IMG/VR virus record: IMGVR_UViG_3300037258_000427
Coordinates: 1-40,584 of that record
Direction: 5' to 3' (one strand)
DNA length: 40,584 nt
Origin: a virus
Part shown: one piece after another, positions 1-40,138 of the stretch
Numbering within the stretch: the stretch's first letter is position 1
How the letters are laid out: each line of letters opens with the position of its first letter
Made by a program: the position numbers and the translations under genes
The notes under the pieces: model-generated
Databases searched by the model: none
What the model saw: only the letters and a program-made list of their open reading frames with translations
What the model was told of the DNA's origin: nothing

Positions 1-269
1 TCTCAAGAGCTGGGGTTAGACGAGCCCACCTGGTGGAGTCGACCGCCCCGCAGATCGTGGCCGATTGCCTCTTTAGGCCTTGGCTAAACCAGATCTGTCA
101 GCAGGGAGACTCTTACCTAGACCGTCACGGCAGCCCCTATCCCCTGATCGAGCGCACGGTGCATTCCGGCTCAAACATGATCCACCTGACCCGAGATGAG
201 ACGGCGGCTATCCGGTCCGGTACCGAGTACCGGCAGCTCATCGCCGCCTTTGGACAAATCCCGTGCTAG
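1..269 (+). CDS. C-terminal part of the family 2 glycosyltransferase that begins at 40135 (partial)
   Basis: This frame is open from base 3 and stops with TAG at 267-269, so the gene enters from outside the window. The reading is SRAGVRRAHLVE followed by about 75 more residues. The segment RRAHLVE with a later RPW and a Ser-Pro-Tyr-Pro-Leu stretch resembles the end of phage-type GT-A glycosyltransferases. The gene at 40135 runs off the other end after Asp-Asn-Glu, where this family normally continues Trp-Leu-Gly-Arg-Leu and then a segment like this one. I infer one gene cut by the contig ends, with 3n+1 bases missing. A GTG at 33 could be called as a start but sits inside the conserved segment, so it is not the true start. 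The stop overlaps the stop of the convergent methyltransferase in the tetranucleotide CTAG. Confidence 0.7.
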   Translation, partial: SRAGVRRAHLVESTAPQIVADCLFRPWLNQICQQGDSYLDRHGSPYPLIERTVHSGSNMIHLTRDETAAIRSGTEYRQLIAAFGQIPC

Positions 270-922
270 CGCTTCTCGAGCACGAAGAGGACAGACCAGG
301 TGTCCTGACTGGGAGGGCGCCCCGTCATGAATTCCTCGGCATGGATGACCGAGAACTGCGGGGCAAAACGCTCTATGTCATCAAAGCCCAGGGGACGCAT
401 GACATGCAGCTCCTCGGCTGCTCCGTTGAACGTATAGCGGACCTCCACGCAGCCATCGTCCCTGACATGAGGGGTCGCAATTCTCCGGATACCGCCGCAT
501 TCCTTGACTCTAACTGAGGGGCCCATATGAGCGACCGCCGGTTGATACCAGACTTCGATAGCGAAGATTCCCCGTGGCACAAGATTCTGGCTGGTTACCT
601 CGAACTGAGAGAGCAGTGCGGTATCAGTAATCTGGTAATTCATCACGTGAAACAGGGCCGTCGCGGAGCTGAATTGTCGTTCCGTGCGATGTTTCGTGAT
701 ATCAGCGACGACACACGGGTGGGAACAATAAGAGGCAAGTTCTTTATCGGAATCGATGCCAAATACGTCAAAGCCCAGTTTCACAAGAGCTTTGCCGTGT
801 TGCCCCGTTCCACAACCAAGATCGAGATTAACCTTCCCCCGCGCTATCAAAAATTGAGTTAGATAATCCGCTTCAGCCTCATAATTCTTATCTGCATAGA
901 AAAGGTCGTAATAAGCGAACAT
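266..922 (-). CDS. Class I SAM-dependent methyltransferase
   Basis: The 218-residue product carries a clear SAM-binding motif I, LDLGCGTGQHG at residues 33-43, followed by the acidic end of strand 2 (FGIDSD, 53-58). This marks a Rossmann-fold small-molecule or sugar methyltransferase. Acceptor specificity cannot be read, but the neighbours make a sugar or glycan acceptor likely. The gene is inverted relative to the cassette. Its stop overlaps the glycosyltransferase stop (CTAG, 266-269) and its start codon overlaps the cupin start codon (CATG, 920-923), leaving no intergenic base and no room for a dedicated promoter outside coding sequence. Plus-strand open frames inside it (263-517 and 527-862) show no family resemblance and are rejected. 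Confidence 0.85.
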   Translation of the reverse strand: MFAYYDLFYADKNYEAEADYLTQFLIARGKVNLDLGCGTGQHGKALVKLGFDVFGIDSDKELASYCSHPCVVADITKHRTERQFSSATALFHVMNYQITDTALLSQFEVTSQNLVPRGIFAIEVWYQPAVAHMGPSVRVKECGGIRRIATPHVRDDGCVEVRYTFNGAAEELHVMRPLGFDDIERFAPQFSVIHAEEFMTGRPPSQDTWSVLFVLEKR

Positions 923-1358
923 GGCTACCTACACAATGAAAGCCGAGACGGGATATTTCGGTCCCACAATCGAATACGTCGAGCACGAGGGAGTGCTGCT
1001 GGCGATCATTATTCCCCATAACTACAAGAAAGACGGTATCGAATTCCTCACTAAACCAGAATATTCCCAGCAGTTAGGGATCATGAAGCGTCCCTCGGGC
1101 TATGTTATCGCCCCGCATATCCATACTGCCGTACCCAGAGAAGTCTCCTATACCCAGGAAGTCCTATTTATCCGCAAAGGACGCGTAGCAGTCGATTTCT
1201 ATGACGAGTCTGGTTCCTACCTCAGCAATAGAACTCTTGAGACCGGCGACGTCATTCTCCTGGCCCGTGGTGGTCACGGATTTCTAATGCTGGAGGAAAG
1301 CGAGATTATTGAGGTCAAGCAAGGACCCTACACCGAGAACGATAAGAGACGGTTTTGA
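921..1358 (+). CDS. Cupin-fold protein, possible sugar-nucleotide isomerase-like enzyme
   Basis: The 145-residue protein has the two cupin motifs: a His-x-His followed by a glutamate (PHIHTAVPREVSYTQEVLFI, residues about 55-74) and a Gly-Asp-x4-5-Gly-Gly-His turn (GDVILLARGGHGF). Proteins of this type sit beside DegT aminotransferases in surface-glycan loci and are often called WxcM- or FdtA-like. A 3,4-ketoisomerase step that feeds the aminotransferase is plausible but not proven, because the FdtA active-site signature is not clearly visible. The stop TGA overlaps the TTG start of the next gene, which indicates translational coupling in the cassette. Confidence 0.75.
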   Translation: MATYTMKAETGYFGPTIEYVEHEGVLLAIIIPHNYKKDGIEFLTKPEYSQQLGIMKRPSGYVIAPHIHTAVPREVSYTQEVLFIRKGRVAVDFYDESGSYLSNRTLETGDVILLARGGHGFLMLEESEIIEVKQGPYTENDKRRF

Positions 1359-2356
1359 TCCCAGTCAATCGGCCGCTCCTGGACGGCAATGAATCAGAGT
1401 ACCTGCAGGAGTGTATTACCTCCGGCTGGGTGGGCTCTGAAGGACCGTTCGTTAAACGCTTTGAGGAAGCCTTCGCGGCCTACCTAGGAAGAAAATACGC
1501 CATAGCGGTCAGTAGCGGAACTGCGGCCCTGGATATCGCCGTATCGGCTCTCAGGCCAAGGTACCTGCGCCTACCCACGATGACGATTATCTCGTGCGTA
1601 AGGGAGCTCGAACGTCTAGAGATTCCCTACGACTTTGTCGATAGCGATCCGGATACCTGGAACATGACAGTCCCTGATGATCCGTTCATGGCGGTACACC
1701 TGTGGGGGTTACCGGTAGATATATCTGAGCGAAGCCCTCTTATTGAGGACTGCTCACAGATGCTGGGGCAAACCTACTACGGGAAGAAGTGCGGGACTCT
1801 AGGGTCTGTCAGCACGTTCAGCTTTTACCCCAACAAGCTCATTACCTGCGGCGAGGGCGGGATGCTCGCGACCGATGACGAATGGATCGCGCGTGAGTGC
1901 CGGAGTCTGCGGGATCTTTATCATGGCCCACGCTTCCACCACGCCCGGCTCGGATTTAACTATCGCATGAGTAACCTACAGGCTGCCGTGGGACTTGCTC
2001 AGCTCGAAGGAATCGATCGAAAGATCCGGCGCAAAAGACAGATAGGAGAGCGCTATAATCAGGGACTGAAGGGCCTCAATGTCCAGCTTCCTCAGGCACG
2101 CACCCCCTATGCGGAGAATCTCTATTGGGTTTATCCGGTCGTGACCGATCGGCCGATGGCGACAGCACTGAAAAAGCAGGGTATCGAGACACGGCCTTTC
2201 TTCTATCCCTTGCACCTGCAGCCGTGTCTGAACGGTGTCGGCTCGTTCCCAGTGGCGGAATATCTCTCGAGTTCAGGGCTTTATCTGCCTTCAGGGAACG
2301 GCACCACGGATGAGGAAATAGACCAAGTCATAGCCGCCGTGAGAGCGAATGCATGA
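1355..2356 (+). CDS. DegT/DnrJ/EryC1/StrS family PLP-dependent sugar aminotransferase
   Basis: The 333-residue protein begins IPVNRPLLDGNE and has the family landmarks: Gly-Trp-Val/Gly (24-27), SSGTAALD for phosphate binding (53-60), IEDCSQ (130-135) for the cofactor-ring Asp132, and the Schiff-base lysine in SFYPNKLITCGEGG (K161). These enzymes transfer an amino group from glutamate to a keto-sugar nucleotide, giving an amino-deoxy sugar. The start is TTG at 1355, overlapping the cupin stop; the N-terminal family motif begins at once, so no other start fits. It is a little shorter than the usual 370 residues or so, but all core elements are present. It probably acts after the cupin enzyme. 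Confidence 0.9.
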   Translation: MIPVNRPLLDGNESEYLQECITSGWVGSEGPFVKRFEEAFAAYLGRKYAIAVSSGTAALDIAVSALRPRYLRLPTMTIISCVRELERLEIPYDFVDSDPDTWNMTVPDDPFMAVHLWGLPVDISERSPLIEDCSQMLGQTYYGKKCGTLGSVSTFSFYPNKLITCGEGGMLATDDEWIARECRSLRDLYHGPRFHHARLGFNYRMSNLQAAVGLAQLEGIDRKIRRKRQIGERYNQGLKGLNVQLPQARTPYAENLYWVYPVVTDRPMATALKKQGIETRPFFYPLHLQPCLNGVGSFPVAEYLSSSGLYLPSGNGTTDEEIDQVIAAVRANA

Positions 2357-3360
2357 AAGTCGCCTTTATTACCCCTCCCTGCCAGCCCACAGATGGGGGT
2401 GTATATAGCTTCGCGCATACAGCCCTCGAAGGACTCAAGGCAGTAGAGACGCAGCACGAGTTCGAATATGTAGAACTCGGAGGCAAGATCGATGCGGACT
2501 TCGCCTGGTTTCTAACCCCGCATTGGCAGCAGGTTAATTGCCCCTTTGCGATTACGGTGTGGGACCTGGGACACAGAGTATTACCAGAGTTCCCTGAAGT
2601 CTCGCTCTCTGGATGGACTTTCGATCAAAGAGAGTCTTTCTATAGCCACGTGCTCACGAGAGCGACTCTTGTTGTGACAGGTAACGAGGCCGGTCGTAGG
2701 CAAATCAGAAGATATTATTCTGTCGATGAGCAGCGAATTGTGATCAATCCGCTGCCGTTATCTTCTGCGCTGGCAAAGGCCAAGTCCTCGGGCGTCAGTG
2801 AGACCTATAAACCTTACTTGCTCTATCCGGCTCAGTTCTGGCCTCACAAGAATCACGTGATGATTCTGGACGCAATGAAGCGATTACCTGACTTCAAGGT
2901 GATATTTACTGGAGCCGACAAGGGTAATCAGGGCTATGTAGAGCAATACGCCCAAAAGCTTGGATTGACTCAGCAGGTCATATTCAAGGGATTCGTGCCC
3001 ATAGAGGAACTGAAGGGATTATATGAGAATGCGCACGCGATGGTGTTTGCCTCACTCCTGGGCCCGGACAATCTTCCGCCAGTTGAGGCTCTGTCGCTAG
3101 GCTGTCCTGTCCTCTGCTATGACTACGATGGAGCCCGTGAGGATTTGTCTCCGTATGTAGATCACTTCATTGACGCTGAAGAGATAGCAGAATTTGTTAT
3201 CAATGAAGAGATAGCAGAATTTGTTATCAATCCAATGAAACACAATCTATCTACTTATCAGCCCCCTACGGCCAATAGTTATGCGTCAAGAATCGTTGAA
3301 GAATTAGATGATTTCTCTTCCACCAGAAAGCTCTGGGATAGAAACTACGTGCATTTATGA
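2353..3360 (+). CDS. Family 4 glycosyltransferase (GT-B fold)
   Basis: The 335-residue product begins KVAFITPPCQPTDGGVYSF, a GT-B N-terminal nucleotide-fold start. It contains YPAQFWPHKNHVMILDAM, the typical linker into the donor-binding domain, and the acidic donor-binding stretch LPPVEALSLGCPVL, which matches the second half of the family E-x7-E motif. A sugar nucleotide donor is expected. The gene overlaps its neighbours by 4 bases on both sides (ATGA type). Near the C-terminus a 9-residue segment (EEIAEFVIN) is duplicated exactly at the DNA level; see the repeat feature. Confidence 0.88.
   Translation: MKVAFITPPCQPTDGGVYSFAHTALEGLKAVETQHEFEYVELGGKIDADFAWFLTPHWQQVNCPFAITVWDLGHRVLPEFPEVSLSGWTFDQRESFYSHVLTRATLVVTGNEAGRRQIRRYYSVDEQRIVINPLPLSSALAKAKSSGVSETYKPYLLYPAQFWPHKNHVMILDAMKRLPDFKVIFTGADKGNQGYVEQYAQKLGLTQQVIFKGFVPIEELKGLYENAHAMVFASLLGPDNLPPVEALSLGCPVLCYDYDGAREDLSPYVDHFIDAEEIAEFVINEEIAEFVINPMKHNLSTYQPPTANSYASRIVEELDDFSSTRKLWDRNYVHL
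3178..3231 (+). repeat. Perfect 27-bp tandem duplication inside the GT4 gene
   Basis: Bases 3178-3204 and 3205-3231 are identical. The unit is 9 codons and keeps the frame, so the protein carries EEIAEFVIN twice in a row. The absence of any difference, synonymous or not, suggests a very recent duplication or an assembly artefact at a short repeat. Confidence 0.97.
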
Positions 3361-4091
3361 GGCTGGCGGAGTACGGCTATCGGGTCACGTCTCAGTATGA
3401 TGAAGACGGGATCATTCAATACCTGGTCAATCAGGTGCCCATCGAGCACAAGACGTTCATTGAGTTCGGGGTGGATAAGTTCGATGAGTCCAACTGTCGC
3501 TACTTACTCGGAGTAGACGATTGGACCGGCCTGGTGATGGACTCCAGCCCCTATAATACCGCCTATATCAATCGCAGGTATGGGCTCGAGGCTAAGTGCG
3601 CCTTTGTCACGGCAGAGAACATCAATGATCTGATCAAAGAGACTCCGGCCGATCTCATCTCGATAGATATCGACGGGATGGATTACTTCGTCTGGGAAGC
3701 GATAGAGATGAGGCCCTCGATCGTGATCTGTGAGTTTAATCCCTTCTATGGGTCGAGACCCGTCACGACGCCTTATGAGCCGAAGTTTGATCGATTCAAG
3801 GCTTATGCCCACGGGAAATATCACGGCGCTTCATTGAGTGCCCTATGTGTTCTGGCGAAGCAGAAAGGCTACAGCTTCTTGGGAACCAATAGTGCTGCTC
3901 ATAATGCATTCTTCGTGCTCTCTGAGATGCTAGGAAATCTGGAGGAGGCCGATCCACTGGAAGTGGAGCAGACTTCTATTTGCACGGCCTATGGTAAAAA
4001 CAATCCGGCTTATTCTTATCAGGACATTCGCGTAATGATTCGAGGGCTTTCAGTGGTTAACGTGGTAACTCAAGAGATGGAGAAACTGTGA
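3357..4091 (+). CDS. FkbM-like SAM methyltransferase-fold protein
   Basis: The 244-residue product has the arrangement SQYDEDGIIQYLV (12-24), FIEFGVDKFDESNCRYLL (from residue 37), GLVMDSSPYNTAYI, and DLISIDIDGMDYFVWEAI. This pattern of Ser-Gln-x-Glu/Asp-Asp-Gly followed by a Glu-Phe-Gly-Val SAM loop and a strand ending Ile-Asp-Ile-Asp-Gly is that of FkbM-like sugar methyltransferases in surface-polysaccharide loci. O-methylation of a sugar is the likely role. The start overlaps the preceding stop (ATGA) and the stop overlaps the GTG of the sulfotransferase. Confidence 0.75.
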   Translation: MRLAEYGYRVTSQYDEDGIIQYLVNQVPIEHKTFIEFGVDKFDESNCRYLLGVDDWTGLVMDSSPYNTAYINRRYGLEAKCAFVTAENINDLIKETPADLISIDIDGMDYFVWEAIEMRPSIVICEFNPFYGSRPVTTPYEPKFDRFKAYAHGKYHGASLSALCVLAKQKGYSFLGTNSAAHNAFFVLSEMLGNLEEADPLEVEQTSICTAYGKNNPAYSYQDIRVMIRGLSVVNVVTQEMEKL

Positions 4092-4795
4092 AGAGTAATG
4101 ACATTTATGTAGCGGCTTACCCTAAGTCAGGGATCACCTGGCTCAGTTTCCTATTAGCCACCGCTCGCCTGCGCTACAACAATATGGCGATGCTGCCGAC
4201 GTTCTATAACATCGATTGGTTAGTGATCGATAGCCACAAGATGGGGGAACTTGAGTACGCCAATATCTGGAATGACGGCATGGGGAACTTCATCAAGACG
4301 CACGCTCACGTTCCTGCCGCTAACGCGATTTATCTGCTCAGAAACCCCTATGACACGCTCAAGAGCTATTACCACTTCGAGAAACGGGTCGGGGGAGCCA
4401 AGGATATTGATTCATTTCTCAAAGTGAGGTGCTCACAGTGGTGTGATCACGTTAGAAACTGGCTGATCGATAGCCGCTACTATTCCCAATCGCTTTATCT
4501 GATCGAGTACGAGAACTTAAGCTCAGCCAGCGTCTGTGCTCTTGGGATGATGCTGGGATTTAACTGGAGACTGGGGGATAACTCCAAGATCTGCGATCGC
4601 AAGAGCATGCGAGATAGTGAGCTGTGGTTTGCCAAGAACAATCCGGTTTATGCGCGTTACGAGATCGACTTCGTGCGGGAAGGCAATAAACGTGAGGTGG
4701 AGGGGTTTGAGGCATATCGGGAGTTCATCGAGGAATGCTGTGGGGCGGTCTATCGTTGTGCTCGTGGACAAGTCCCGTCTTTAACGCTATCGTAG
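4088..4795 (+). CDS. Sulfotransferase (PAPS-dependent)
   Basis: The 235-residue product shows both PAPS-binding signatures: the 5'-phosphosulfate loop YPKSGITWL (residues 11-19) and the 3'-phosphate motif RNPYDTLKSYYHF (85-97). The family moves sulfate from PAPS to a hydroxyl or amine on a carbohydrate or small molecule. The start is GTG at 4088 overlapping the upstream TGA, the last coupled junction of the cassette. Its position after sugar aminotransferase, glycosyltransferase and methyltransferase genes suggests the acceptor is the cassette's glycan. The phage would depend on host PAPS. Confidence 0.88.
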   Translation: MKSNDIYVAAYPKSGITWLSFLLATARLRYNNMAMLPTFYNIDWLVIDSHKMGELEYANIWNDGMGNFIKTHAHVPAANAIYLLRNPYDTLKSYYHFEKRVGGAKDIDSFLKVRCSQWCDHVRNWLIDSRYYSQSLYLIEYENLSSASVCALGMMLGFNWRLGDNSKICDRKSMRDSELWFAKNNPVYARYEIDFVREGNKREVEGFEAYREFIEECCGAVYRCARGQVPSLTLS

Positions 4796-5094: not shown

Positions 5095-5313
5095 ATGGCC
5101 GATAAAACCGCAGCCCATATCAAAGAAAAGGGCCACATGCCCGATAAGAACGAAGATCCAGGCACCGAGCATTGCCCACATTGCGCCGATCACCACGCTC
5201 GCCTTTCTGCGGTAGAGGCCCACCTGGGTATGGCCACTGAGCATGGAGTCGCTGCCGAGGAAACCGGGGCACACAAGGAAAAGAAGCCCAGCTATACGAG
5301 AAAGCGCCATTAA
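5095..5313 (+). CDS. Small Cys/His-containing hypothetical protein (72 aa)
   Basis: The product has a CPHCADHHARLSAVEAHLG segment at residues 27-45, a plausible metal-binding CxxC plus His cluster, and a basic C-terminus ending TRKRH. The stop overlaps the next start as TAATG (5311-5315), typical of coupled phage genes. No family recognised. Confidence 0.65.
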   Translation: MADKTAAHIKEKGHMPDKNEDPGTEHCPHCADHHARLSAVEAHLGMATEHGVAAEETGAHKEKKPSYTRKRH

Positions 5314-5720
5314 TGAGACCGCAGCCGATGCGCACGAGCCGCGGGGCTCGTTTTGCAGGAGAGACGCTCGAGCATGTACCCGGCAATGAAAAGATCAGGC
5401 CTCTCAGAGATCAGATCATTGTCGCGCCCCTGGAAGTCGTCTATTCCCGCTATATCTATGTCGGCCAGAACCATAAACCGTTGCGTGGCAAGGTTTTAGC
5501 AGTAGGACCTGGCTGTTATCCGAAAGTCTATGACCACCCGGAAAAGCACAAAAGAACCAAAATGTGGGAAAGTAAGGCTTTCCGTCCCACCGAAGTTAGA
5601 GCCGGAGACACAGTGGAGCTCGGAGGCTCAGAAATCGAAGGATATGCTTTCGAGCAGTTCTGGTGGGGAGATGAATTATGTCTTATCTGTCGGGAAGCCG
5701 ACGTGTGCTTCGTTTCCTGA
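5313..5720 (+). CDS. GroES-like co-chaperonin (phage Cpn10)
   Basis: The 135-residue product aligns by eye with Cpn10: IRPLRDQIIVAPLE (residues 28-41) for the first strand, a mobile-loop-like stretch, LRGKVLAVGPGCY, VRAGDTVELGG, and the final GDELCLICREADV. Phage GroES analogues (T4 gp31 and relatives) replace host GroES on GroEL to fold large coat proteins. An extra 20-residue lysine-rich insertion (YDHPEKHKRTKMW) lies between the two halves. Position just before the terminase, portal and coat genes supports a head-folding role. Confidence 0.8.
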   Translation: MRPQPMRTSRGARFAGETLEHVPGNEKIRPLRDQIIVAPLEVVYSRYIYVGQNHKPLRGKVLAVGPGCYPKVYDHPEKHKRTKMWESKAFRPTEVRAGDTVELGGSEIEGYAFEQFWWGDELCLICREADVCFVS

Positions 5721-5904: not shown

Positions 5905-6144
5905 ATGGCTATACGTAAAAGGCTCTATCACCCCGAAGAGGTGAGAGCAAAGATCAGAACCAGTCAGCTCGTTAACCGCCTGAATGCATTCGTAAATGGT
6001 AAAATCGAGCTTTCTCCCCATCAAGTCAGTGCCGCATTAGGCCTGATCAAGAAAACCATGCCAGATCTACAAGCCATAGATCTGACAGCCAAGGGAGACG
6101 CCAGCCATCCCCTGGTGGTCAGTCACATCGATGGCGCCCTTTAA
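5905..6144 (+). CDS. Putative terminase small subunit
   Basis: The 79-residue product (RKRLYHPEEVRAKIRTSQLVNRL, then ELSPHQVSAALGLIKKTMPDL) has the helical pattern of a short protein that regularly precedes the large terminase in podophages: a basic N-terminus, then a helix-turn-helix-like 'SPHQVSAALGLIKK'. It overlaps the large subunit by 14 bases. The DNA-recognition role is inferred from position and pattern. Confidence 0.6.
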   Translation: MAIRKRLYHPEEVRAKIRTSQLVNRLNAFVNGKIELSPHQVSAALGLIKKTMPDLQAIDLTAKGDASHPLVVSHIDGAL

Positions 6145-7483
6145 GCTCACTCCCAAGCAGGAACACGCTAATGCGCTTTTAGCCAGCTTAGCCACCCATA
6201 TCATGCTGGCCGGAGGGTCCAGATCCGGTAAGACCTTGCTGCTCATCAGAGCCATGGTGATTAGGGCCCTGAAGGCTCCAGGCTCTAGGCACGCTGTATT
6301 GAGATTCCGGTTCGGTCACGTCAAGCAATCGATAGTGCATGACACGTTCCCCAAGGTGATGGGCCTGTGCTTTCCGCAGGTGAAACATGAAATCAACCGC
6401 TCTGACTGGTTCGCAACGCTACCTGGCGGCTCTGAAATCTGGTTCGGAGGACTGGACGACAAAGAAAGGACTGAAAAGATTCTCGGCACTGAATTCGCGA
6501 CGATCTTCTTCAACGAATGTAGTCAGATTCCCTACGCCTCCCGGAACATGGCTCTCACGCGTCTGGCGCAGCTGGTTCAGGACTCGGTAACCAAGAAGCC
6601 CTTAGCCCTCAAAGCCTATTACGACGAGAATCCTCCGGATAAGGGCCATTGGAGCTATAAGCTTTTTAAGCTCAAGCAGGACCCAGAGACCAAGCGTCAG
6701 CTGGAGAGCCCAGAGGACTATGGTTATGACAGGTTGAACCCCAAGGATAACGAAGAGAATCTCTCGCCCGATTACCTAAAGACGCTGGAGTCTCTCCCCC
6801 CGCGGCTGCGTAAGCGGTTCTTAGAGGGCGAATTCCGCGATGCGGCGCCCAATGCGCTCTTTACCGATGAGACGCTCGATCGCTGGCGTCTTATCGATAG
6901 CGATATCCCTCAAATGCTCAGGATCGTGGTGGCCATAGATCCTTCGGGGGCAGACGATGAAGAAAACATCGATAACGATGAAATCGGGATTGTGGTCTGC
7001 GGACTGGGCATCGATGGTAACGGATACGTCCTTGAGGACCTCACTTGTAAAGTGGGTCCAGCCCATTGGGGTCGTATTGCTACCCAAGCGTATGAGCGTC
7101 ACAGCGCTGACCGCATTGTCGGGGAAGTTAATTTCGGAGGGGCAATGGTCAAAGCTGTTATCCATTCTGCGCGACCACGAACCCCTTTCCGGGCGGTGAC
7201 GGCTTCCCGAGGAAAGGTAGTACGGGCCGAGCCCATGTCGGCTCTGTGCGATCTGGGCAAGATCAGAATGGCCGGGATATTCAGGGATCTAGAGGACGAA
7301 CTAACCGGGTTCACTACCCACGGCTATATGGGCGATCACAGCCCTAACCGTGCGGATGCCATGGTTTGGGGAATGTCAGATCTTTTCCCAGAACTCACTA
7401 AGTTCAAAGAGAAGCCCGAGGTTGTAGTACAGCCGACGGTCTATCGACCGAGTAAGACCGCCTGGATGAGGAACATGGGCTAA
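6131..7483 (+). CDS. terL: Terminase large subunit
   Basis: The 450-residue product carries Walker A GGSRSGKT at 28-35, a Walker B-type strand TIFFNE at 124-129, and an RNase H-like nuclease domain with an acidic strand VVAIDPSGADDEE near residue 260 and the late acidic motif NRADAMVWG near 405. It is the ATP-driven DNA packaging motor and headful or cos nuclease. The length matches phage large terminases. It is followed without gap by the portal gene (TAATG). Confidence 0.95.
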   Translation: MAPFKLTPKQEHANALLASLATHIMLAGGSRSGKTLLLIRAMVIRALKAPGSRHAVLRFRFGHVKQSIVHDTFPKVMGLCFPQVKHEINRSDWFATLPGGSEIWFGGLDDKERTEKILGTEFATIFFNECSQIPYASRNMALTRLAQLVQDSVTKKPLALKAYYDENPPDKGHWSYKLFKLKQDPETKRQLESPEDYGYDRLNPKDNEENLSPDYLKTLESLPPRLRKRFLEGEFRDAAPNALFTDETLDRWRLIDSDIPQMLRIVVAIDPSGADDEENIDNDEIGIVVCGLGIDGNGYVLEDLTCKVGPAHWGRIATQAYERHSADRIVGEVNFGGAMVKAVIHSARPRTPFRAVTASRGKVVRAEPMSALCDLGKIRMAGIFRDLEDELTGFTTHGYMGDHSPNRADAMVWGMSDLFPELTKFKEKPEVVVQPTVYRPSKTAWMRNMG

Positions 7484-9552
7484 TGACCAGAGACCCAGAA
7501 TTCGACGCGATCTCAGAGCGCGATATCTTCGATGAAGCCCGAGATAGGCTCGAGATCGCTATCAGCGCCGAGAGCGATAACCGTAATGGGGCTAAAGAGG
7601 ATCTGAAGTTCAAAGAGGGTGATCAATGGGACGATGAGCCTGTCACGACGCTATCCATGGAGACCCCGGAGCTGGTGATTAACTTCACGGACGCTCTGGT
7701 GCGTCGCGTGGTCAATAACATGAAGCAGCAGCGTCCCCGCGGGAAGTGCCACCCCGTAGGGGATGGTGCTCAGATCGAGACAGCTGAAGTAATCAACGGC
7801 ATCGGCAGGCACGTCGAATATCGGTCCGAGGCCTCGGTCGCCTATGACACGGCAGGCGATATGGCGGTCGCCTGCGGCTGGGGCTATGCCCGCCTGGTTG
7901 CTGAGTATGTAGCAGCCAATTCCTTCGAGAAGGACTTAAGAATCCTTCCGATCAGGAACATATTCACCGTTTACATGGACCCGGCTGCTTTGATGCCGAC
8001 CGCCTGTGATGCGGACTGGTGCCTGATTACGATCGTGATGAAGCGGACGGAGTACAAGAGGCTCTATCCGAATGCCGATAACAAGGCCTGGAGTGATACC
8101 GGTCGGGATGAATGGCGCCATAACTGGGAGGACAAGGAAGAGATTCGCTTAGCCGAGTACTTCCGTATCCGGGAAAAGGAAGAAAAGCTCTTTGAGCTCA
8201 CGAACGCTCAGGGCAAGAAGTTCACGCGCTTTGAGTCCGAGCTGCCAGACCCTGAGACCTTGGCCAACGCTCAGCTGACGGTCACCCAGGAGAGGGAGGG
8301 CTCACGCAGGCGGGTAGAGTGGTTCCGGCTCAATGGAACCAAGGTCGTTGATCGAGAGATCCTGCCCGGGACCTTTATCCCGGTGGTCCGCTGCGAGGGT
8401 AATGCAGTCGATATCGATGGCAAGGTCGTGCGCCGCGGAATGGTTCGCATGATGCAGGACCCCCAGCGCATGGTGAACTATGGGGAGGTGGCAAAGATTC
8501 GCCGGCTCGGATTAACCCCACAGGCGCCCTGGGTAGGGGCCGAGGGCCAGTTCGACGGCCATCCAGAGTGGGATAATGCGAACCAGCAGCCTTTCGCCAA
8601 GCTGATCTATAAGCCCGTCACAATCCAGACAGAGCAGGGCGAGGTGTTATTGCCTCCTCCCCAGAGGCAGCAACCGGCTCAGCTAGAAGCAGGATTTAGC
8701 GAATTTACCCAGCAGATGCGCTCTAACCTGCTAGCCATAGCGGGTATGCCCAATGAGCCGGGGCAAGACGAACAGGGACAGGTCGTCTCGGGCAGAGCGA
8801 TCCAGAAACGCCAGAAGCTCTCGGATCAGTCTCACTTTCAGTATTACGATAACCAGACTCTGATGATCGCTCAGCTCTGGCGCATCATGCTGGAATATAT
8901 CCCCGTGATCTATGTCGAGCCGGGCCGGCTCCAGAGGGTCATCGGGGAGGACGGGGTCCCCGAGATGGCGACGCTGAATAAAAAGACCATGGAGGGGGAT
9001 ACCCAGGTCATCAAGAACAATGTTCTTGTGGGTCGATATGACGTGGTCATGGATACCGGCCCCGGCTACGACACGAAGCGGGAAGAGGGCGCCGATACCT
9101 TGCTGGGGATGCTCCAGTCGCCTCCGGTTGCGGAAACACTGATGAAGATCGCTCCCGATCTCATATTCCGCTCGATAGACCACCCCTATATGCAGGAGAT
9201 CGCTGATCGGTTCTCTGCCATGACGCCGGATGGGTTGAAGCAGGTCATGAGCGAACTGCCGGAGCGGGCTAAATCGGTGGTTCAGTCCCTGGCGAATGAG
9301 AACGCTCAGCTCAAGCAGGCTCTGCAGGCGGCTCAATCAGGTATCACCAAGGCCCACCTGGCTGCGACCGTGAAGGCTCACGATACGGAAGTGAGGGCCA
9401 AGACCGCTAAGGAAGATCGGGAGCTGCAGGCAGGCGTAGACGTCTTTATCGAGGCTATGAAGCACGGGCATGAGATCAAGCTGGCCGATAAACAGGCCGA
9501 ACAACTGGTGAAGGAAGGACAGGGAAATGGCTCAAACGGTACTGGACAGTAA
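7483..9552 (+). CDS. Portal protein, P22 type
   Basis: The 689-residue product resembles the P22-like portal family: an N-terminal RNGAKEDLKFKEGDQW motif, FTDALVRRVVNNMKQQRP, a central stem region, and a long Gln/Ala/Lys-rich C-terminal helix (from about residue 600) like the P22 barrel. It forms the dodecameric DNA channel at one head vertex. The gene starts one base into the terminase stop (TAATG) and overlaps the scaffold start by 26 bases. Confidence 0.9.
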   Translation: MTRDPEFDAISERDIFDEARDRLEIAISAESDNRNGAKEDLKFKEGDQWDDEPVTTLSMETPELVINFTDALVRRVVNNMKQQRPRGKCHPVGDGAQIETAEVINGIGRHVEYRSEASVAYDTAGDMAVACGWGYARLVAEYVAANSFEKDLRILPIRNIFTVYMDPAALMPTACDADWCLITIVMKRTEYKRLYPNADNKAWSDTGRDEWRHNWEDKEEIRLAEYFRIREKEEKLFELTNAQGKKFTRFESELPDPETLANAQLTVTQEREGSRRRVEWFRLNGTKVVDREILPGTFIPVVRCEGNAVDIDGKVVRRGMVRMMQDPQRMVNYGEVAKIRRLGLTPQAPWVGAEGQFDGHPEWDNANQQPFAKLIYKPVTIQTEQGEVLLPPPQRQQPAQLEAGFSEFTQQMRSNLLAIAGMPNEPGQDEQGQVVSGRAIQKRQKLSDQSHFQYYDNQTLMIAQLWRIMLEYIPVIYVEPGRLQRVIGEDGVPEMATLNKKTMEGDTQVIKNNVLVGRYDVVMDTGPGYDTKREEGADTLLGMLQSPPVAETLMKIAPDLIFRSIDHPYMQEIADRFSAMTPDGLKQVMSELPERAKSVVQSLANENAQLKQALQAAQSGITKAHLAATVKAHDTEVRAKTAKEDRELQAGVDVFIEAMKHGHEIKLADKQAEQLVKEGQGNGSNGTGQ

Positions 9553-10510
9553 TGACCTTGATGCGATCATCGCGGACGCGACGGGGGAAGCGCCTCAAGA
9601 AGCTGATAAGCCGAAGGAGGAGCCAAAAGTAGAGGCCAAGACCGAGCCTAAAGAAGAGTCGGACGACCTGGAGGGTGAAGATGGCCTGACTCCCCGCCAG
9701 AAGCGGGAACTAACGGCCAAGATGCAGACAGCGATCGGAAAGAAGCACCGAGCCCTCAAGGACGCCGAGGAGTTCGCGACCGAACAGTACAACGAGCGGC
9801 GCCTAGCCGAAGAGCGGGCACAGACTCTGACCGCTCAGCTTGAAGAGATTCGTAAGCAGAATGTTCCACGTGAAACATTGCCGGTCGAGCCCAAGCGTGA
9901 GAACTTCAAGACTGATGCCGAATACGCCGATGCTCTCATTGATTACCGGGTGGACAGGAAGCTCAAGGCAAAAGCGGAGGCTGATGAGAAGCTCGCCGCT
10001 GAACGTCGACAAGAAGAGATCCTAGCCACCGCTAAAGGCCGTATTGCGCAGGCGATCGAGTTGGTTCCCGACTTCGTCGAGGTCACGGAGGCTGTTGACT
10101 GGCCGACTCCTCCTGCCATAGCCGGCTACATGCAAGAGTCCGATATGTTTGCCGAGCTTGGCTATTACCTAGCTCAGCATAGTGATGAGCGTTCTCGCCT
10201 CGAGAAACTATCACCGCAACGACAATTAGTTGAAATCGGTAAAATTGAGAGTAAGCTAGAGCCATTCTCAGCCAAAACTGAGAAAGTCAAGCTAAACGGC
10301 TCTGAGAAGCCGAGTCAGGGAAACGGCGCACTGCCGAGTGAGACGGTGGAAACACCGAGCCAGCCCCGTACAGCGCCCGTTATCAAGCCGCTGAGTTCAG
10401 GTAGCGCGATCCAAGTCGAGAAGGCCCCTCACGAGCGTAACTACGCCGAGGAAAAGGCCGCTTGGCAAAGAAAGCAGCACGTGAACCTAGCTAAGCGATC
10501 CAGGCACTGA
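9527..10510 (+). CDS. Scaffolding protein
   Basis: The 327-residue product is highly acidic at the N-terminus (residues 15-55, many Glu, Asp, Lys), has a long predicted coiled coil at about 60-120, and ends with a basic segment (EEKAAWQRKQHVNLAKRSRH). This acidic, helical, basic-tail plan and the position between portal and coat identify the scaffold that guides procapsid assembly and leaves the head. Sequence identity to known scaffolds is not obvious, so the call rests on composition and synteny. ATG at 9527 follows AAGGAAGGACAGGG. Confidence 0.82.
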   Translation: MAQTVLDSNDLDAIIADATGEAPQEADKPKEEPKVEAKTEPKEESDDLEGEDGLTPRQKRELTAKMQTAIGKKHRALKDAEEFATEQYNERRLAEERAQTLTAQLEEIRKQNVPRETLPVEPKRENFKTDAEYADALIDYRVDRKLKAKAEADEKLAAERRQEEILATAKGRIAQAIELVPDFVEVTEAVDWPTPPAIAGYMQESDMFAELGYYLAQHSDERSRLEKLSPQRQLVEIGKIESKLEPFSAKTEKVKLNGSEKPSQGNGALPSETVETPSQPRTAPVIKPLSSGSAIQVEKAPHERNYAEEKAAWQRKQHVNLAKRSRH

Positions 10511-10544: not shown

Positions 10545-11903
10545 TTGGCAAATCAATTACTTACGATCAGCATGATTACGAATCGAGCACTGCCGGTGCT
10601 CGCGAATACGTGTGTACTGACCGATAAGTTCAACCGGCAATATGACAAAGAATTCGGTGTAAAGGGCCGCAAGATCGGCGCCACCTGTAACGTCAGGTTG
10701 CCGCCTCGATATCTGGGCACCTTCGGGCCGGCTCTGAACGTTGAGCCGAGCACTGAGAACTACGTTCCCGTGTCGATACTTTATCAGTATCACGTGGACG
10801 TTCAGTTCAACACGATTAACATGCTGCTCGACATTGATGAGTTCGAGGAGCGCTTTATCAATCCGGCCTGTATCGCAGTCGGTAACCGTATCGATAGCGA
10901 TGGGGCCTACTTCGGCTACCAGAATACCGGGAACCGCCTAGGAACTCCTGGAACCGCTCCCGTATCGTACCTGGCCTTTGCCCAGGCACGAGCGATCCTG
11001 GCCTCCGAGGGTATGCCCAAGGGCCTGATGCCCACCACGGTTCTGCATCCTCTGGCCAATGCCTCGATGTCGGATAGCTTCAAGGGACTTTATAACCCGC
11101 AGGTCGATATCTCGGATATCTACGAGACCGGCATGATTGCCGGCAAGACCGCGGGGGCCGATTGGTTCGAAGATCCGAATATTGCTGCTTACAGCACCGG
11201 CTCTCTCCTGGGAACTCCGGTTCTGGCAGGCGGAACCTCGGCTGCGGGTGGAACCGCTCTGATCACCTCGGGCTACGCGCAGACTGGAACTCTGGAGCTC
11301 TCAGGGCTCACGAGCAATTCGGCTGCTTGCTATGTCGGGGATACGATTCAGATCCTTGGCGTCTATCCGGTCAATCCTCAGTCACGAGGTCGATACGGCA
11401 ATACGCTCAAACAGTTCGTGGTTCTCCCTCCGGGCGGCTACGCGCAGATGACCGGCTCAGCCTCTCCGGGCGGGCCGCAGTTCAATAGCGCTACGCTGCA
11501 TAACGGCCTCTTCAACGCCACCACGGGACTCTATACGGCCACCGCAGGCGGTCTACTGACCGTCACGATCGGCGAGTGCCTGATCTCAGGAGGCCAGTTC
11601 CAGAACGTGAGTGCCGCTCCGGTCTCACCCTACACCGTGACGCTGAACGGCGGGACGACCTTGGCGACCAGCTCAACGGAGAACCTCTACTTTCACCGAG
11701 ACGCCTTTGCTCTGGCCTTCGTGGATCTCCCTCTTCCACGAACGGCTGTCGAGGCCTCACGTGCATACGATGAGGATCTCGGTCTTTCTATCCGCGTTGC
11801 TACTCAGTATACGATCAACAACGATGCCGAACCGACCCGTATGGACGTGGCTTACGGTTTCGGCTCCTTGTATCGCTCGCTGGGTGCCCGAGTCTCGGGT
11901 TAG
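10545..11903 (+). CDS. Major capsid (coat) protein, P22 gp5-like
   Basis: The 452-residue product begins ANQLLTISMITNRALPVL and contains GRKIGATCNVRLPPRY and VDVQFNTINMLLDIDEFEERFI, features of the P22 coat family. The start is TTG at 10545: an in-frame TGA at 10536 excludes anything earlier, and GGAG at 10532-10535 lies at correct distance. A stronger SD (GGGAGGAAAGA, 10512-10522) lies farther upstream and may serve a leader peptide or be unused. Residues about 230-370 form a Thr/Gly-rich insertion that may be a surface domain. Confidence 0.92.
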   Translation: MANQLLTISMITNRALPVLANTCVLTDKFNRQYDKEFGVKGRKIGATCNVRLPPRYLGTFGPALNVEPSTENYVPVSILYQYHVDVQFNTINMLLDIDEFEERFINPACIAVGNRIDSDGAYFGYQNTGNRLGTPGTAPVSYLAFAQARAILASEGMPKGLMPTTVLHPLANASMSDSFKGLYNPQVDISDIYETGMIAGKTAGADWFEDPNIAAYSTGSLLGTPVLAGGTSAAGGTALITSGYAQTGTLELSGLTSNSAACYVGDTIQILGVYPVNPQSRGRYGNTLKQFVVLPPGGYAQMTGSASPGGPQFNSATLHNGLFNATTGLYTATAGGLLTVTIGECLISGGQFQNVSAAPVSPYTVTLNGGTTLATSSTENLYFHRDAFALAFVDLPLPRTAVEASRAYDEDLGLSIRVATQYTINNDAEPTRMDVAYGFGSLYRSLGARVSG

Positions 11904-11914
11904 GAGAAAACTAG

Positions 11915-12325
11915 ATGGCATTTCCTTCAGTCACTAACGTCGATGGCTCAAATCCGGGCCCGAACAGCACGGTACTGCCAGATACCGTCCAGATGCCGAC
12001 CGGCAATATCTGGAAAAGCGGGGTTTTTAACCTCACGCTGGCTCCGGTAACGATCGCCTCCTCTACTACGGCCGAGCAGACCTTTGCTGCCACTGGCATT
12101 GGGCTGATCACGACCGATTGGGTTTGGGTCACTTCGAGCCAGACCAATAACGGGGTCGGTATCGTCAATGCTCGGGTATCCGCCTACGACACGCTGAATA
12201 TCACTTGGGTCAACCCTCAGCCGACCGCAGGCACTCCGAGCACGACCGCAAGCTATAGCGTGTTCGTGGTCCGAGTGCAACCGAACTGGGTCAAGCCCTC
12301 ATCGGGTAATCAGCTTGACTGGTAA
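11915..12325 (+). CDS. Putative head decoration/structural beta protein A (136 aa)
   Basis: ATG at 11915 follows GGAGAAAA. The product is Thr/Ser/Val-rich with an all-beta look. Its second half (GIVNARVSAYDTLNITWVNP, then YSVFVVRV) parallels the protein encoded at 13025-13369 (GIVNSRVTAVNSLQIEYLN, then YELVVTRPE). The pair are therefore paralogues placed on either side of a glycosyltransferase-like gene. Location right after coat suggests a decoration or head-completion protein. Confidence 0.7.
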   Translation: MAFPSVTNVDGSNPGPNSTVLPDTVQMPTGNIWKSGVFNLTLAPVTIASSTTAEQTFAATGIGLITTDWVWVTSSQTNNGVGIVNARVSAYDTLNITWVNPQPTAGTPSTTASYSVFVVRVQPNWVKPSSGNQLDW

Positions 12326-13022
12326 CGATTGTCCCTACAAAGGGCATGTATTTTTCGCGACTCCGGCATATGACTCGAACGTCTGTGTTGAATATGTAAG
12401 TTCCATGATCATGTCCGGGATGCTGCTCACGAAGTCCGGCGTGAACATGGAGCACAATATTCATTGCGGAAACTACGACCTGGGTCACGCCAGGAATGCC
12501 CTGGTGGAATCGTTCTTGGAGTCAGATGCCACGGACTTGATCTTTGTGGATTCAGACGTGGGTTTCGATGCCAAGGTGCTGCCGAGAATCTTGCTATCGG
12601 ACAAGCTCGTCGTTGGTGGATTGGTCCCAAAGCGGGACCGTCTGCAGGACGACGTCTATCACATGAATGCGATCACGGGGGTAATCGAAGGCAGCTTGAT
12701 GCAGTCGGTTGAGCTACCCACGGCCTTCATGCGGATCAAGCGCGAGACCTTCGCGAAGCTCAAAAAGCCTTATTTCAAGCTCAATTCCAGTGATTCGGCC
12801 AAGGGTGAGGATATCTATTTCTGTCGCAAGCTGATCGCTGCGGGTGAGTTTTGCTGGATCGATGCCGACATTAACTTCACCCATCGCGGTACCAAGGGCT
12901 GGACAGGTAATTTCTACGAGCACGCGGTTAAGAGTGGTCTTTTAACCACGCCGGAGCCGAAAGTATCGGTCAAACCCTACTTGGGGATGCCGCTGGGTAA
13001 CGGGGCAGAACACAGGATCTAA
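12315..13022 (+). CDS. GT-A fold glycosyltransferase in the head-gene cluster
   Basis: The 235-residue product has GHARNALVESFLES (57-70) followed by DLIFVDSDVGF (74-84), with a DxD motif Asp79-Ser-Asp81 that would coordinate the metal and sugar nucleotide. Later residues (THRGTKGWTGNFYEH) fit the acceptor side of this phage GT group. It begins with TTG at 12315, overlapping the upstream gene by 11 bases; no ATG lies in frame nearby. Being embedded directly after coat rather than in the sugar cassette, it is a good candidate for glycosylating a head protein. Confidence 0.78.
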   Translation: MTGNDCPYKGHVFFATPAYDSNVCVEYVSSMIMSGMLLTKSGVNMEHNIHCGNYDLGHARNALVESFLESDATDLIFVDSDVGFDAKVLPRILLSDKLVVGGLVPKRDRLQDDVYHMNAITGVIEGSLMQSVELPTAFMRIKRETFAKLKKPYFKLNSSDSAKGEDIYFCRKLIAAGEFCWIDADINFTHRGTKGWTGNFYEHAVKSGLLTTPEPKVSVKPYLGMPLGNGAEHRI

Positions 13023-13024
13023 TC

Positions 13025-13369
13025 ATGGCTAATCCGTCAACCTTATCGCGTGGAAACATTATTGGGCAGTGGGGCCTAGCGGTCACTCTATCGCCGGCCA
13101 CGTGCTCTGCGACCACGACCACGCTTCAGACCTTTACGATTCCAGGGCTAGCATTGGGGGATATCGTATCGGTGACGACCAGCGTGCCGATTGCTTATGG
13201 ACTCGGGATCGTCAATTCACGCGTGACGGCGGTCAATTCGCTTCAGATCGAGTACCTGAATACGACCGCTCTGACCCTGACTCCGGCTACGAATACCATC
13301 TATGAGCTGGTAGTGACGCGGCCAGAGAATCTGGTCAACAACGTGTCGAATCTCACGCAGATCACCTGA
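13025..13369 (+). CDS. Putative head decoration/structural beta protein B (114 aa)
   Basis: This is a Thr/Ser-rich all-beta protein, paralogous in its C-terminal half to the product at 11915-12325 (shared GIVN-R-AV/Y-L pattern). It follows the glycosyltransferase by 2 bases. A structural role is inferred from neighbours and composition. Confidence 0.68.
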   Translation: MANPSTLSRGNIIGQWGLAVTLSPATCSATTTTLQTFTIPGLALGDIVSVTTSVPIAYGLGIVNSRVTAVNSLQIEYLNTTALTLTPATNTIYELVVTRPENLVNNVSNLTQIT

Positions 13370-24323: not shown

Positions 24324-24506
24324 ATGAGTACCGAAAAGGCCTATAGAAATCTGGCCTGGGATACTTATTTTGCCTCCATCTTCGGGATGAGTCTTCATCC
24401 TGGTACGACGCGAGATGCCGCTCAACATCGAAGCATCGAGGAGTGCGCCAGGCTGGCAGACGAGATGCTCAAAGAGCGCGATAAACGCTGGCCGGAAGAT
24501 GCTTAG
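24324..24506 (+). CDS. Hypothetical protein (60 aa)
   Basis: The product reads [20 protein letters not shown], then a helical acidic/basic C-terminus ([20 protein letters not shown]). It overlaps the following oxygenase gene by 8 bases. The helical amphipathic look suggests a small soluble partner protein. Function unknown. Confidence 0.6.
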
Positions 24507-25047
24507 ATTGCTTCAGGATGCCTACGCAGATACGTCCAGGCTCACAGAGCAGCTCGAGGCTCATCCTGAGGTATGGAACACCATTACTTTAAGAACCGAG
24601 CACCCGCGCTCCCCTCATAGGGAGATAGATGATATCTGGGTCCGATACAACCCGATAGAGCACTATCACGGTGATATGTCCGCCTTCAATGGCGAGCACG
24701 CAGGGGAATGGTATCCGTCTGCTGAAATTCTCCCAGAAGCTAAGCGCCTAGCGCAGGGTATTCAGCGCGACTATCTTGGGAACACATTGGGAGCAGTCCT
24801 GATTACCAAGATTCCAGCCGGAAAGAGGTGTTATCCACATATAGACCAGGGCTGGCACGCCGGCTATTACGAAAAGTTTGCCCTGCAGGTTAAGGGAAAC
24901 AAGCAACAGACGTTCCACGTGGCTGAAGAGACGCTGCGCACGAAAAGTGGCGATCTATTCGAGTTCGATAACTCCATAGAGCACTGGGTGCTCAATCCCT
25001 CGGATGAGGATCGAATTACGATGATCGTCTGTATTAGGAGACACTGA
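24499..25047 (+). CDS. 2-oxoglutarate/Fe(II) oxygenase, aspartyl/asparaginyl beta-hydroxylase-like
   Basis: ATG at 24499 gives 182 residues. The double-stranded beta-helix signature is present: the HxD iron pair in [11 protein letters not shown] (H114, D116), the distal histidine in [19 protein letters not shown] (H162), and the 2-oxoglutarate-binding arginine in DEDRITMIV (R172). The spacing fits the Asp/Asn beta-hydroxylase family, which hydroxylates Asp or Asn side chains in proteins. An open extension to 24415 overlaps the upstream gene and lacks family residues, so it is excluded. Placed between tail genes and ejection proteins, its target may be a virion protein. Confidence 0.82.
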
Positions 25048-32982: not shown

Positions 32983-33531
32983 TTACCACTTCAGGCCAAA
33001 ATCGCGGCGCTTAATCTTCGCCATGCGACCGTCCGAGTGATGCCATACCAGACCCTCGATGACGCGCTCGGCTAGCCAAGCCTTCAGACCATCAAAGGTC
33101 CGCGGGGCATCCTCGTAGACTGCGGCATCCTCGTGGGCCATCAGCGTATGCGCGAGCGTGCCGTCCTTGTTACCCTGGATCTTCGGCCCGATCAGCTCAT
33201 AAGTGCCCGGCACCTTGGCGACGTAATCGTTGAACGCCTCCCGATGCCAGCGGTCATCCGGACCATCGCCAACCGGCACCCAGCCGACGGTTTTACCCGT
33301 GTTCTCGTCGGTTCCAAGACTCTCAAAGTCTGTAGGCGCCCTATCCCCTGGCTTTAGTTCGCGTCGCTTGTAGAGCTTCCCATCGCGTACCAGGCAGCTT
33401 GTGCCGTCATATTTTCGGGTGGCGACTCCTTCCCCGTCCCGGACCCACTTACAGTCAGCCGACCATACCGGCGTCACGAGCGCCGGCTGCTTGGTCATGT
33501 CCCTGGAGAAGATTGTTGGTATTTTGTTCAT
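32983..33531 (-). CDS. RNA ligase-type nucleotidyltransferase (DUF5565-like)
   Basis: The 182-residue product contains the adenylation lysine motif KYDGTS (K40-S45) and later motifs EGLVWHHSDG and MAKIKRRDFG, matching motifs IV and V of the ligase fold. This short family is annotated as RNA ligase 1-like (DUF5565). It would repair or modify RNA ends, perhaps countering tRNA cleavage by host defences. It has no OB or C-terminal domain. A strong hairpin sits 23-45 bases upstream of the start. Confidence 0.82.
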   Translation of the reverse strand: MNKIPTIFSRDMTKQPALVTPVWSADCKWVRDGEGVATRKYDGTSCLVRDGKLYKRRELKPGDRAPTDFESLGTDENTGKTVGWVPVGDGPDDRWHREAFNDYVAKVPGTYELIGPKIQGNKDGTLAHTLMAHEDAAVYEDAPRTFDGLKAWLAERVIEGLVWHHSDGRMAKIKRRDFGLKW

Positions 33532-34242: not shown

Positions 34243-34856
34243 GCGGACCCGTTCTCAGCCAAGCATTCACCGCTTGCGCGCGGGCAGTCGGCTAGATCGC
34301 TGCCGCAAAACGCGCACGCTTTCGTTTCCTCCGCAGTTATCGGCCCGTGATCGTGAGGCTCTGACCGCATGCACCCGGGTAGATCGCAACCGGTAGTCTC
34401 GTCAGCGGGTCGGAGCTTGGATGCGATGAGCCCCAGCTCGGTAACAGCGTGCTTGACCTCGCAGCCGTTGTTCAGCCACGCCGCGACATTGTTGAGTTGG
34501 GCCGGTAGCTTATCCAGCGCCGCGCGCAGCCGCTCGTAGTCCTCATACAGCACCCACGGCCCCTTACCAACTTCAAGCATTTCGTGCCCGTGCGTCGCCT
34601 GGCACCAGTTCACATAGCGCTTCGGATTTGAGGACAGCGGCTCTTTTGGCTCTGGAGCTGCAGGGAACTTGCCGCCAGCGGCCTCGAACCACGCCTCAAC
34701 CGGCATGACCCGAACGAAACCTCCGCAGTTGATCCCAATGGCCCCTTCCTTGGTGACGTGGATGCTGTCGGCATAGTAATCGCCAGGCACCTTCCGCCAT
34801 ATCTCACGGTCTGTGTTCTCACAGGCTTGGTGATTCTCGGACAGCGGCTCATTCAT
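34239..34856 (-). CDS. Hypothetical protein with shared Cys/His module (205 aa)
   Basis: ATG at 34856 overlaps the end of the methyltransferase frame (TCAT); the longer frame to 34940 would lie inside the methyltransferase gene. The N-terminal part has the phage-typical stretch PGDYYADSIHVTKEGAIGIN. The C-terminal part has the repeated TGCDLPGCMRSEPHDHGPIT module followed by CAFCGSDLADCP, a likely metal site. It overlaps the next gene start by 4 bases. Confidence 0.7.
   Translation of the reverse strand: MNEPLSENHQACENTDREIWRKVPGDYYADSIHVTKEGAIGINCGGFVRVMPVEAWFEAAGGKFPAAPEPKEPLSSNPKRYVNWCQATHGHEMLEVGKGPWVLYEDYERLRAALDKLPAQLNNVAAWLNNGCEVKHAVTELGLIASKLRPADETTGCDLPGCMRSEPHDHGPITAEETKACAFCGSDLADCPRASGECLAENGSA
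34323..34394. repeat. 72-bp direct repeat, copy 2
   Basis: Identical to 33997-34068 over all 72 bases; the flanking bases differ at both ends. The two copies start 326 bp apart in adjacent genes. Confidence 0.96.
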
Positions 34857-35497
34857 GCGGCGCTCCTGATGGCTTTCGCGATGAGCTGCGCGACCGGCGG
34901 GCAGACGGCGTTGCCAAGGGCATAGCGGCGGTCCACCCAATTGGAAAGCCCATCATTCGCTCCCAGTCTTCTGGGTGCAGAATCCCAAGTGACTGCAAGC
35001 TCATCCGCCACTTGCCGACCCGGCCCGCGCCACCACCGCGACAGCTCCCGTAGCTGCTCGCTGTCGGAGTGGGCAATGACAAAAGCTCGCGCGCGCCCGT
35101 GGACGGCTCCAACTTCAGAGGCGCGCACTCGAAGCGGCAGCGAGGCGTACCCATAGGCCCATAGCTCGCGCCGCAATTCGGGCACCCAGTTGCGCCAGCA
35201 GTGGTGCGTGTTTTCGACAACCACCCAGTCAGGACGTACATCAGCGAGCTCCGAGAGCCTGAGAGCCCGGCTCTCTTGCCAGCTACCGACAAGTCCTGAC
35301 ACGGGAAACCCGCCGTTAATACGAGCGTCCCGGTACGCAGGTACGCTGGGCCATCGGTGGCTGAGGACTGCGCGGCACCCGTCGCCGAGTTCGATAAAGG
35401 CTGCTGGGCGGAATCCTTCGCGATCGAATCCAAGGCTGAACCCTCCAATGCCTGCAAACAAATCGACGTGGTGATCCGATGACAGTGACTCAGCCAT
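34849..35497 (-). pseudogene. C5 cytosine DNA methyltransferase with motifs split between two frames
   Basis: Frame A (34853-35497, start MAESLSSDHHVDLFAGIGGF) holds motif I, then motif VI as WVVVENT, motif VIII as HGRARAFVIAH, and a motif IX/X-like ALGNAVCPPVAQLIAKAI end. The catalytic motif IV is absent there; it appears in frame B (34849-35457) as LTAGFPCQDLSVAGKRAGLS, the Cys codon at 35299-35301. The frame must change near 35310-35330 and back near 35237-35255, a compensating pair. Frame B also has family-like ends (LPTPTASSYG at about 35044-35076 and MGFPIGWT at 34930-34953). The gene is therefore broken, misassembled, or uses recoding. As read, neither single frame gives an active enzyme. 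Confidence 0.75.
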
Positions 35498-39962: not shown

Positions 39963-40138
39963 ATGAAATTCAATCGTAGGGACCTAAATGAAGCTTCAAT
40001 CGTATCAGCCCTCCAAAGGGGTGGTTGTCAGGTCGATTACGTAGAGCGCAGGCCCTATGACCTGGTAGGGTTGGCTGGAGTGCTCACTATGCCGTCGTTA
40101 GAACACCAGAAGAAGCACTAAAAGCGGTAGGACTATGA
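39963..40138 (+). pseudogene. Decayed VRR-NUC/RecB-like small nuclease
   Basis: ATG at 39963 reads KFNRRDLNEASIVSALQRGG, then YDLVGLAGVL, the typical beginning of a short phage nuclease family. The C-terminal typical end, AHYAVVRTPEEALKAVGL, follows immediately in another frame and overlaps the GT2 start as ATGA. The central part with the Glu-x-Lys catalytic core is missing, so an internal deletion with frameshift removed about half the gene. The remaining open frame stops at 40121 after 52 residues. An extra 14-codon frame (39922-39966) precedes it. Confidence 0.6.

Follow-up and report, generated by a model that had tools for sequence, protein, structure and literature searches.

What does a phage of 40 kb build with a set of glycan genes that includes a sulfotransferase, and onto which acceptor would the product be placed? 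The locus lies in IMG/VR record IMGVR_UViG_3300037258_000427, a stretch of 40,584 bases from an environmental metagenome that was analysed over its full length and is referred to here as the window. Its terminase, portal, scaffold, and capsid genes identify it, by homology, as a P22-like podophage, and its closest named relative by portal protein is Xanthomonas phage PBR31 (39.6%). A host search with the capsid protein, covering 385 genomes of one class and 297 of one family, returned distant prophages only, the best at ~33% identity. Among the minus-strand genes of the window is a small RNA ligase at 32983–33531 (phrog_14301, E = 8e-54; RLIG1 domain).

Enzymes and layout of the cassette

The first-pass annotation of this DNA had claimed a coupled run of cupin, DegT aminotransferase, GT4, FkbM-like methyltransferase, and PAPS sulfotransferase genes, with a SAM methyltransferase and a GT2 at the join. 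The whole set is present, with families assigned by Pfam, fold, and PDB matches, and all genes named within 266–4795 are intact ORFs. The cassette and the phage genes that follow it are:

40135–40584, plus strand: GT2 glycosyltransferase, N-terminal part, running off the contig end (PF00535, E = 2.3e-16)
3–269, plus strand: probable C-terminal part of the GT2, in another frame, open from the contig start
266–922, minus strand: class I SAM methyltransferase of the sugar N-methyltransferase kind, DesVI/TylM1-like (DesVI 3bxo, 1.4e-8; TylM1)
921–1358, plus strand: WbuC-like metal-binding cupin (TIGR04366, 2.8e-8, below the curated cut-off)
1355–2356, plus strand: DegT/DnrJ/EryC1/StrS PLP aminotransferase (PF01041, 1.5e-75)
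2353–3360, plus strand: GT4 glycosyltransferase (PF00534, 1.1e-20)
3357–4091, plus strand: FkbM-like SAM methyltransferase (50% to an Azospirillum protein)
4088–4795, plus strand: PAPS-dependent sulfotransferase, SULT type (PF00685, 2e-15)
5313–5720, plus strand: GroES-like phage protein (Cpn10, 4.5e-4), a lineage-conserved anchor downstream of the cassette
6131–7483, plus strand: large terminase, TerL (phrog_979, 1.2e-68)
7483–9552, plus strand: P22-like portal protein (phrog_156, 2.7e-101)
9527–10510: scaffold
10545–11903, plus strand: major capsid protein (phrog_283, 8e-54)

The five plus-strand genes, from the cupin to the sulfotransferase, overlap by 4 bp at each junction, a sign of translational coupling, and run on the same strand into the GroES–TerL–portal module; orthologues of the GroES-like gene also precede TerL in relatives of the lineage. 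The coupling claimed earlier does not extend to the first methyltransferase, which lies on the minus strand and hence outside the operon. The two start codons, its own and the cupin's, overlap (920–923), leaving no space for a separate promoter, so its expression from this divergent position is uncertain; promoter and terminator scans gave no signal above shuffled sequence. The GT2 at the join is borne out by its domain, but its two parts do not join in frame, so that closure of the contig at this gene is presumed, a few bases probably being missing at the ends. Weak plasmid matches to the joined protein reach slightly beyond the join.

Among solved structures, the minus-strand methyltransferase is most similar to DesVI and TylM1, which N,N-dimethylate 3-amino sugars linked to nucleotides, and the DLGCGTG motif of the phage protein is invariant in an alignment with bacterial partners; solved homologues and SAM motif alike place it, by sequence, among the sugar N-methyltransferases of this type. 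The desosamine/mycaminose pathway (Tyl1a, TylB, TylM1; DesVI) follows a logic of cupin, DegT aminotransferase, and N-methyltransferase. The phage methyltransferase matches that pathway, whereas the phage aminotransferase most resembles perosamine synthase (perosamine synthetase 3bn1, 1.5e-59), a C4 enzyme, and for the cupin neither sequence nor profile searches gave a solved relative. Perosamine synthase is a C4 aminotransferase acting on GDP-4-keto-6-deoxymannose. In the phage aminotransferase, Lys161 of the SFYPNK motif is invariant. The cupin gave no Pfam match; it is 46–54% identical to plasmid cupins, up to 66% identical to bacterial cupins, and has conserved HxH...E...H residues, and it is probably a sugar-nucleotide isomerase or epimerase.

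The GT4 is 38–39% identical to two glycosyltransferases of a Bradyrhizobium locus. Its gene holds an exact 27-bp tandem duplication (EEIAEFVIN twice), which would reflect either recent slippage or an assembly error. Neither Pfam nor NCBIfam gave a match for the FkbM-like protein; the fold matches of its AlphaFold model (pLDDT 87.6) are SAM methyltransferases, with sugar C3'-methyltransferases on top, and it is confidently predicted to fold as a SAM methyltransferase. In its match to human SULT2B1 (3.7e-9), the sulfotransferase aligns over the PAPS-binding YPKSG and RNP motifs, and it shares an invariant catalytic Lys and His, K70 and H72, with bacterial homologues; its 5'-PSB YPKSGxTW, catalytic K-x-H, and 3'-PB RNP elements are those expected from sequence of a cytosolic-type SULT (PF00685). 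PHROGs v4 contains no family for the cupin, the FkbM-like protein, or the sulfotransferase.

The earlier proposal of a methylated, sulfated amino-sugar on virion proteins or at the host surface is supported in part. The window ORFs scanned by Pfam include no NDP-sugar 4,6-dehydratase, so the sugar pathway is incomplete and its precursor must be the host's; that annotation had overlooked both this gap and a glycosyltransferase in the head module.

Bacterial counterparts and other viruses

The notion that amino-sugar synthesis, methylation, and sulfation form one linked pathway is well supported, as surface-polysaccharide loci of bacteria hold these genes in clusters too. A close counterpart is on the Bradyrhizobium sp. 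ISRA443 plasmid NZ_CP094524, where two sulfotransferases, a cupin, a DegT aminotransferase, a methyltransferase, and glycosyltransferases lie within one locus that matches the phage sulfotransferase (32%), cupin (54%), DegT (49%), N-methyltransferase (32%), and GT4 (39%). This bacterial locus differs in adding an ABC exporter, asnB, UDP-glucuronate decarboxylase, and more glycosyltransferases, and there was no match between its annotated FkbM gene and the phage FkbM-like protein. An Azospirillum plasmid carries cupin, DegT, methyltransferase, and sulfotransferase genes, and a Caballeronia plasmid has a cupin and a DegT gene near gmd and a methyltransferase gene.

Cupin, DegT, and methyltransferase occur together in 68 of the 80 bacterial loci with the closest cupins, and positions 266–2356 of the window hold this surface-glycan trio, by sequence, within a few genes. 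The chemistry of the trio is not new, being that of a widespread bacterial surface-polysaccharide module, and homology places the origin of the cassette gene set in bacteria. The phage cupin groups with bacterial cupins, apart from most other viral cupins (moderate support), which suggests an acquisition separate from the other viral ones. The GDP-mannose 4,6-dehydratase gene gmd lies near the trio in 20 of 83 bacterial loci and rfbB in none, a count that covers only the stretch around each locus and in which a nearby gmd is no strict criterion. About half of the gmd loci also carry a fucose synthase, so the link of the gene set to GDP-4-keto-6-deoxymannose is suggestive rather than proven.

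The search for the same gene set in other phages, which had been recommended, succeeded in part: the trio is present in six other viral contigs (L021, L024, L026/L027, L029, L209, and L212; L026 and L027, each with a terminase in its record, are counted as one), and in L029 a T4-like major head protein lies ~7 kb from it. No sulfotransferase was found in the searched parts of these six, nor in 19 viral contigs whose cupin is related. The window protein and a bacterial homologue were also used as queries against IMG/VR (as single sequence and as profile) and against 50,697 phage records, likewise without any sulfotransferase match, and no other record among those searched combines amino-sugar synthesis, N-methylation, and SULT-type sulfation in one phage. 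It had been remarked that phage sulfotransferases are rarely discussed, which is fair: they are known, and their function in phages has been called unclear (PMC10580990). Phage glycan genes, virion glycosylation, and phage sulfotransferases are each known separately; new among the records searched is a glycan cassette of a 40-kb phage that includes a SULT-type sulfotransferase.

The head-module glycosyltransferase

Beyond the major capsid gene, the following features bear on the acceptor:

11915–12325, plus strand: dec1, a small capsid-adjacent protein that adjoins the major capsid protein in most of the lineage and is related to 13025–13369
12315–13022, plus strand: head-module glycosyltransferase, GT-A type (phrog_1574, 3e-15; weakly, glycosyltransferase phrog_34859)
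13025–13369, plus strand: dec2, a second small capsid-adjacent protein, paralogue of dec1
24415–25047, plus strand: 2OG-Fe(II) Asp/Asn-hydroxylase-like enzyme of the tail module (PF05118, 2.1e-9)

The gene at 12315–13022 places a glycosyltransferase inside the structural module, as expected of a virion glycosylation system. A profile scan found it in ~30 relatives of the same metagenomic podophage lineage (L238–L269), where it follows the major capsid gene and is usually flanked by two related small proteins. DxD and GED motifs are typical of GT-A enzymes, and both (residues 79–81 and 164–166) are kept in 25 relatives; the AlphaFold model of the protein is poor (pLDDT 54), with no fold match under E = 1e-3. 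These observations point to glycosylation near the capsid as a core feature of the lineage, and dec1 is a candidate glycan acceptor. The cassette genes had no match in the head-glycosyltransferase loci of the relatives or upstream of their TerL, which makes the cassette, as far as these loci go, an extra carried by this phage. Since relatives with the head-module glycosyltransferase lack the cassette, the two need not cooperate. The glycosyltransferase may be the more general of the two.

The tail-module oxygenase has homologues in relatives L249 and L254, and a tie between it and the glycan is a candidate only. In L254 (IMGVR_UViG_3300014325_000008), the large terminase (~2568–4697) carries a ~255-residue in-frame insertion with Cys at its start, HN before Cys at its end, and a LAGLIDADG-like motif, by sequence an intein. 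A 486-residue ORF upstream of GroES in the relative L002 looked glycosyltransferase-like by eye, an identity to which Pfam, PHROGs, and the PDB lent no support.

Proposed pathway and acceptor of the glycan

We propose that an NDP-4-keto-6-deoxyhexose, most likely GDP-4-keto-6-deoxymannose, comes from the host and would probably be isomerised or epimerised by the cupin. The DegT enzyme would then add the amino group, which the minus-strand methyltransferase would N-methylate. Sugars would next be transferred by the GT4 and GT2, in the cytoplasm, as none of the cassette proteins has a transmembrane segment; the FkbM-like enzyme would O-methylate the glycan, and the sulfotransferase would add sulfate from host PAPS. 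The likeliest acceptor would be a virion protein, for example one of the small capsid-adjacent proteins, which the conserved head-module glycosyltransferase of the lineage would already have primed.

The virion is favoured by the lineage-conserved glycosyltransferase beside the major capsid protein, the position in the late operon, and the lack of membrane proteins. The position is used by other phages too: podovirus ct7QV12 (MW202713; Manatee Spring) has glycosyltransferase, methyltransferase, and DegT-like genes on the same strand immediately before TerL, although its capsid and portal genes are different, no sulfotransferase or cupin is annotated, and its DegT is 33% identical. Glycans on major capsid proteins have been reported for mycobacteriophages (Freeman 2023, cited in PMC11256854); there, in Che8 and relatives, the glycosyltransferases are phage-encoded as well, but the phage group is an unrelated one, and the citing account describes no amino-sugar synthesis or sulfation cassette for it. 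Counting against the virion, the bacterial counterparts make surface polysaccharides. What the analysis shows is the families of the enzymes, the linkage of their genes, and the bacterial origin of the set; which sugar is made, in which order the enzymes act, and that the virion receives the glycan are inferred. A phage-borne glycan cassette fed by a host keto-sugar, with a virion protein as the likeliest acceptor, is therefore our preferred reading, held tentatively and at close to even confidence. Its fullest form, in which capsid-associated proteins are coated with a self-built, sulfated, N-methylated amino-sugar glycan as the first phage-encoded virion sulfation, we regard as unlikely.

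The main rival is modification of the host surface, in which lipid-linked host O-antigen or exopolysaccharide would receive, in the cytoplasm, a methylated, sulfated amino-sugar cap that alters the receptor and prevents superinfection. It stays in contention because in bacteria these genes serve surface polysaccharides, and ABC exporter genes are often close by (in 20–25 of 83 loci); in Bradyrhizobium, an ABC permease and ATPase lie just upstream of the sulfotransferases, and the related phage PBR31 has a putative O-antigen-modifying deacetylase. The cassette nonetheless directly precedes packaging and head genes and has no flippase, GtrA/GtrB-like protein, or membrane segment, whereas gtrABC serotype conversion employs a GtrA flippase and a GtrB membrane glycosyltransferase. 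No integrase was found in the genome of this phage, and seroconversion benefits a lytic phage less. We consider a host-surface target possible but somewhat doubtful.

The enzymes might instead glycosylate, aminate, methylate, or sulfate a modified DNA base and so evade restriction, a very unlikely reading. Glycosyltransferases and sulfotransferases have figured in proposed DNA-modification systems of phages (Iyer et al. 2013, as cited in PMC10829341), and the window carries a 2OG oxygenase and a C5-cytosine methylase-like gene (34853–35497, minus strand). The product of the latter retains motif I and the C-terminal motifs, yet has GGFPVSG in place of the expected catalytic PC motif, and the oxygenase belongs to the Asp/Asn-hydroxylase family. 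The window gave no Tet/JBP match in a search run without a positive control. A search for a thymidylate synthase homologue, in which the control was positive, found none, and the cassette genes match surface-sugar genes.

Least probable of all is the chimera that had been named as grounds for refutation, a bacterial polysaccharide fragment fused to a phage contig: the set falls partly at the contig ends, with the GT2 broken over the join, and the cassette is absent from all relatives examined, but phage genes flank it on both sides, its codon usage falls inside the range of the phage's own genes, and its proteins are all well diverged from bacterial homologues (the cupin at most 66% identical), several of them being shorter.

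The unusual part of the cassette is its sulfation gene. Phage sulfotransferases have been known only as orphan genes (PMC10580990), and here one belongs to a coherent glycan pathway whose product can be tested. Were the virion the target, phages would join the biological particles that bear sulfated glycans, which would affect how virions adsorb, how stable they are, and how antibodies recognise them. To judge by the conserved glycosyltransferase beside the capsid gene, virion glycosylation may be ordinary across a whole metagenomic podophage lineage.
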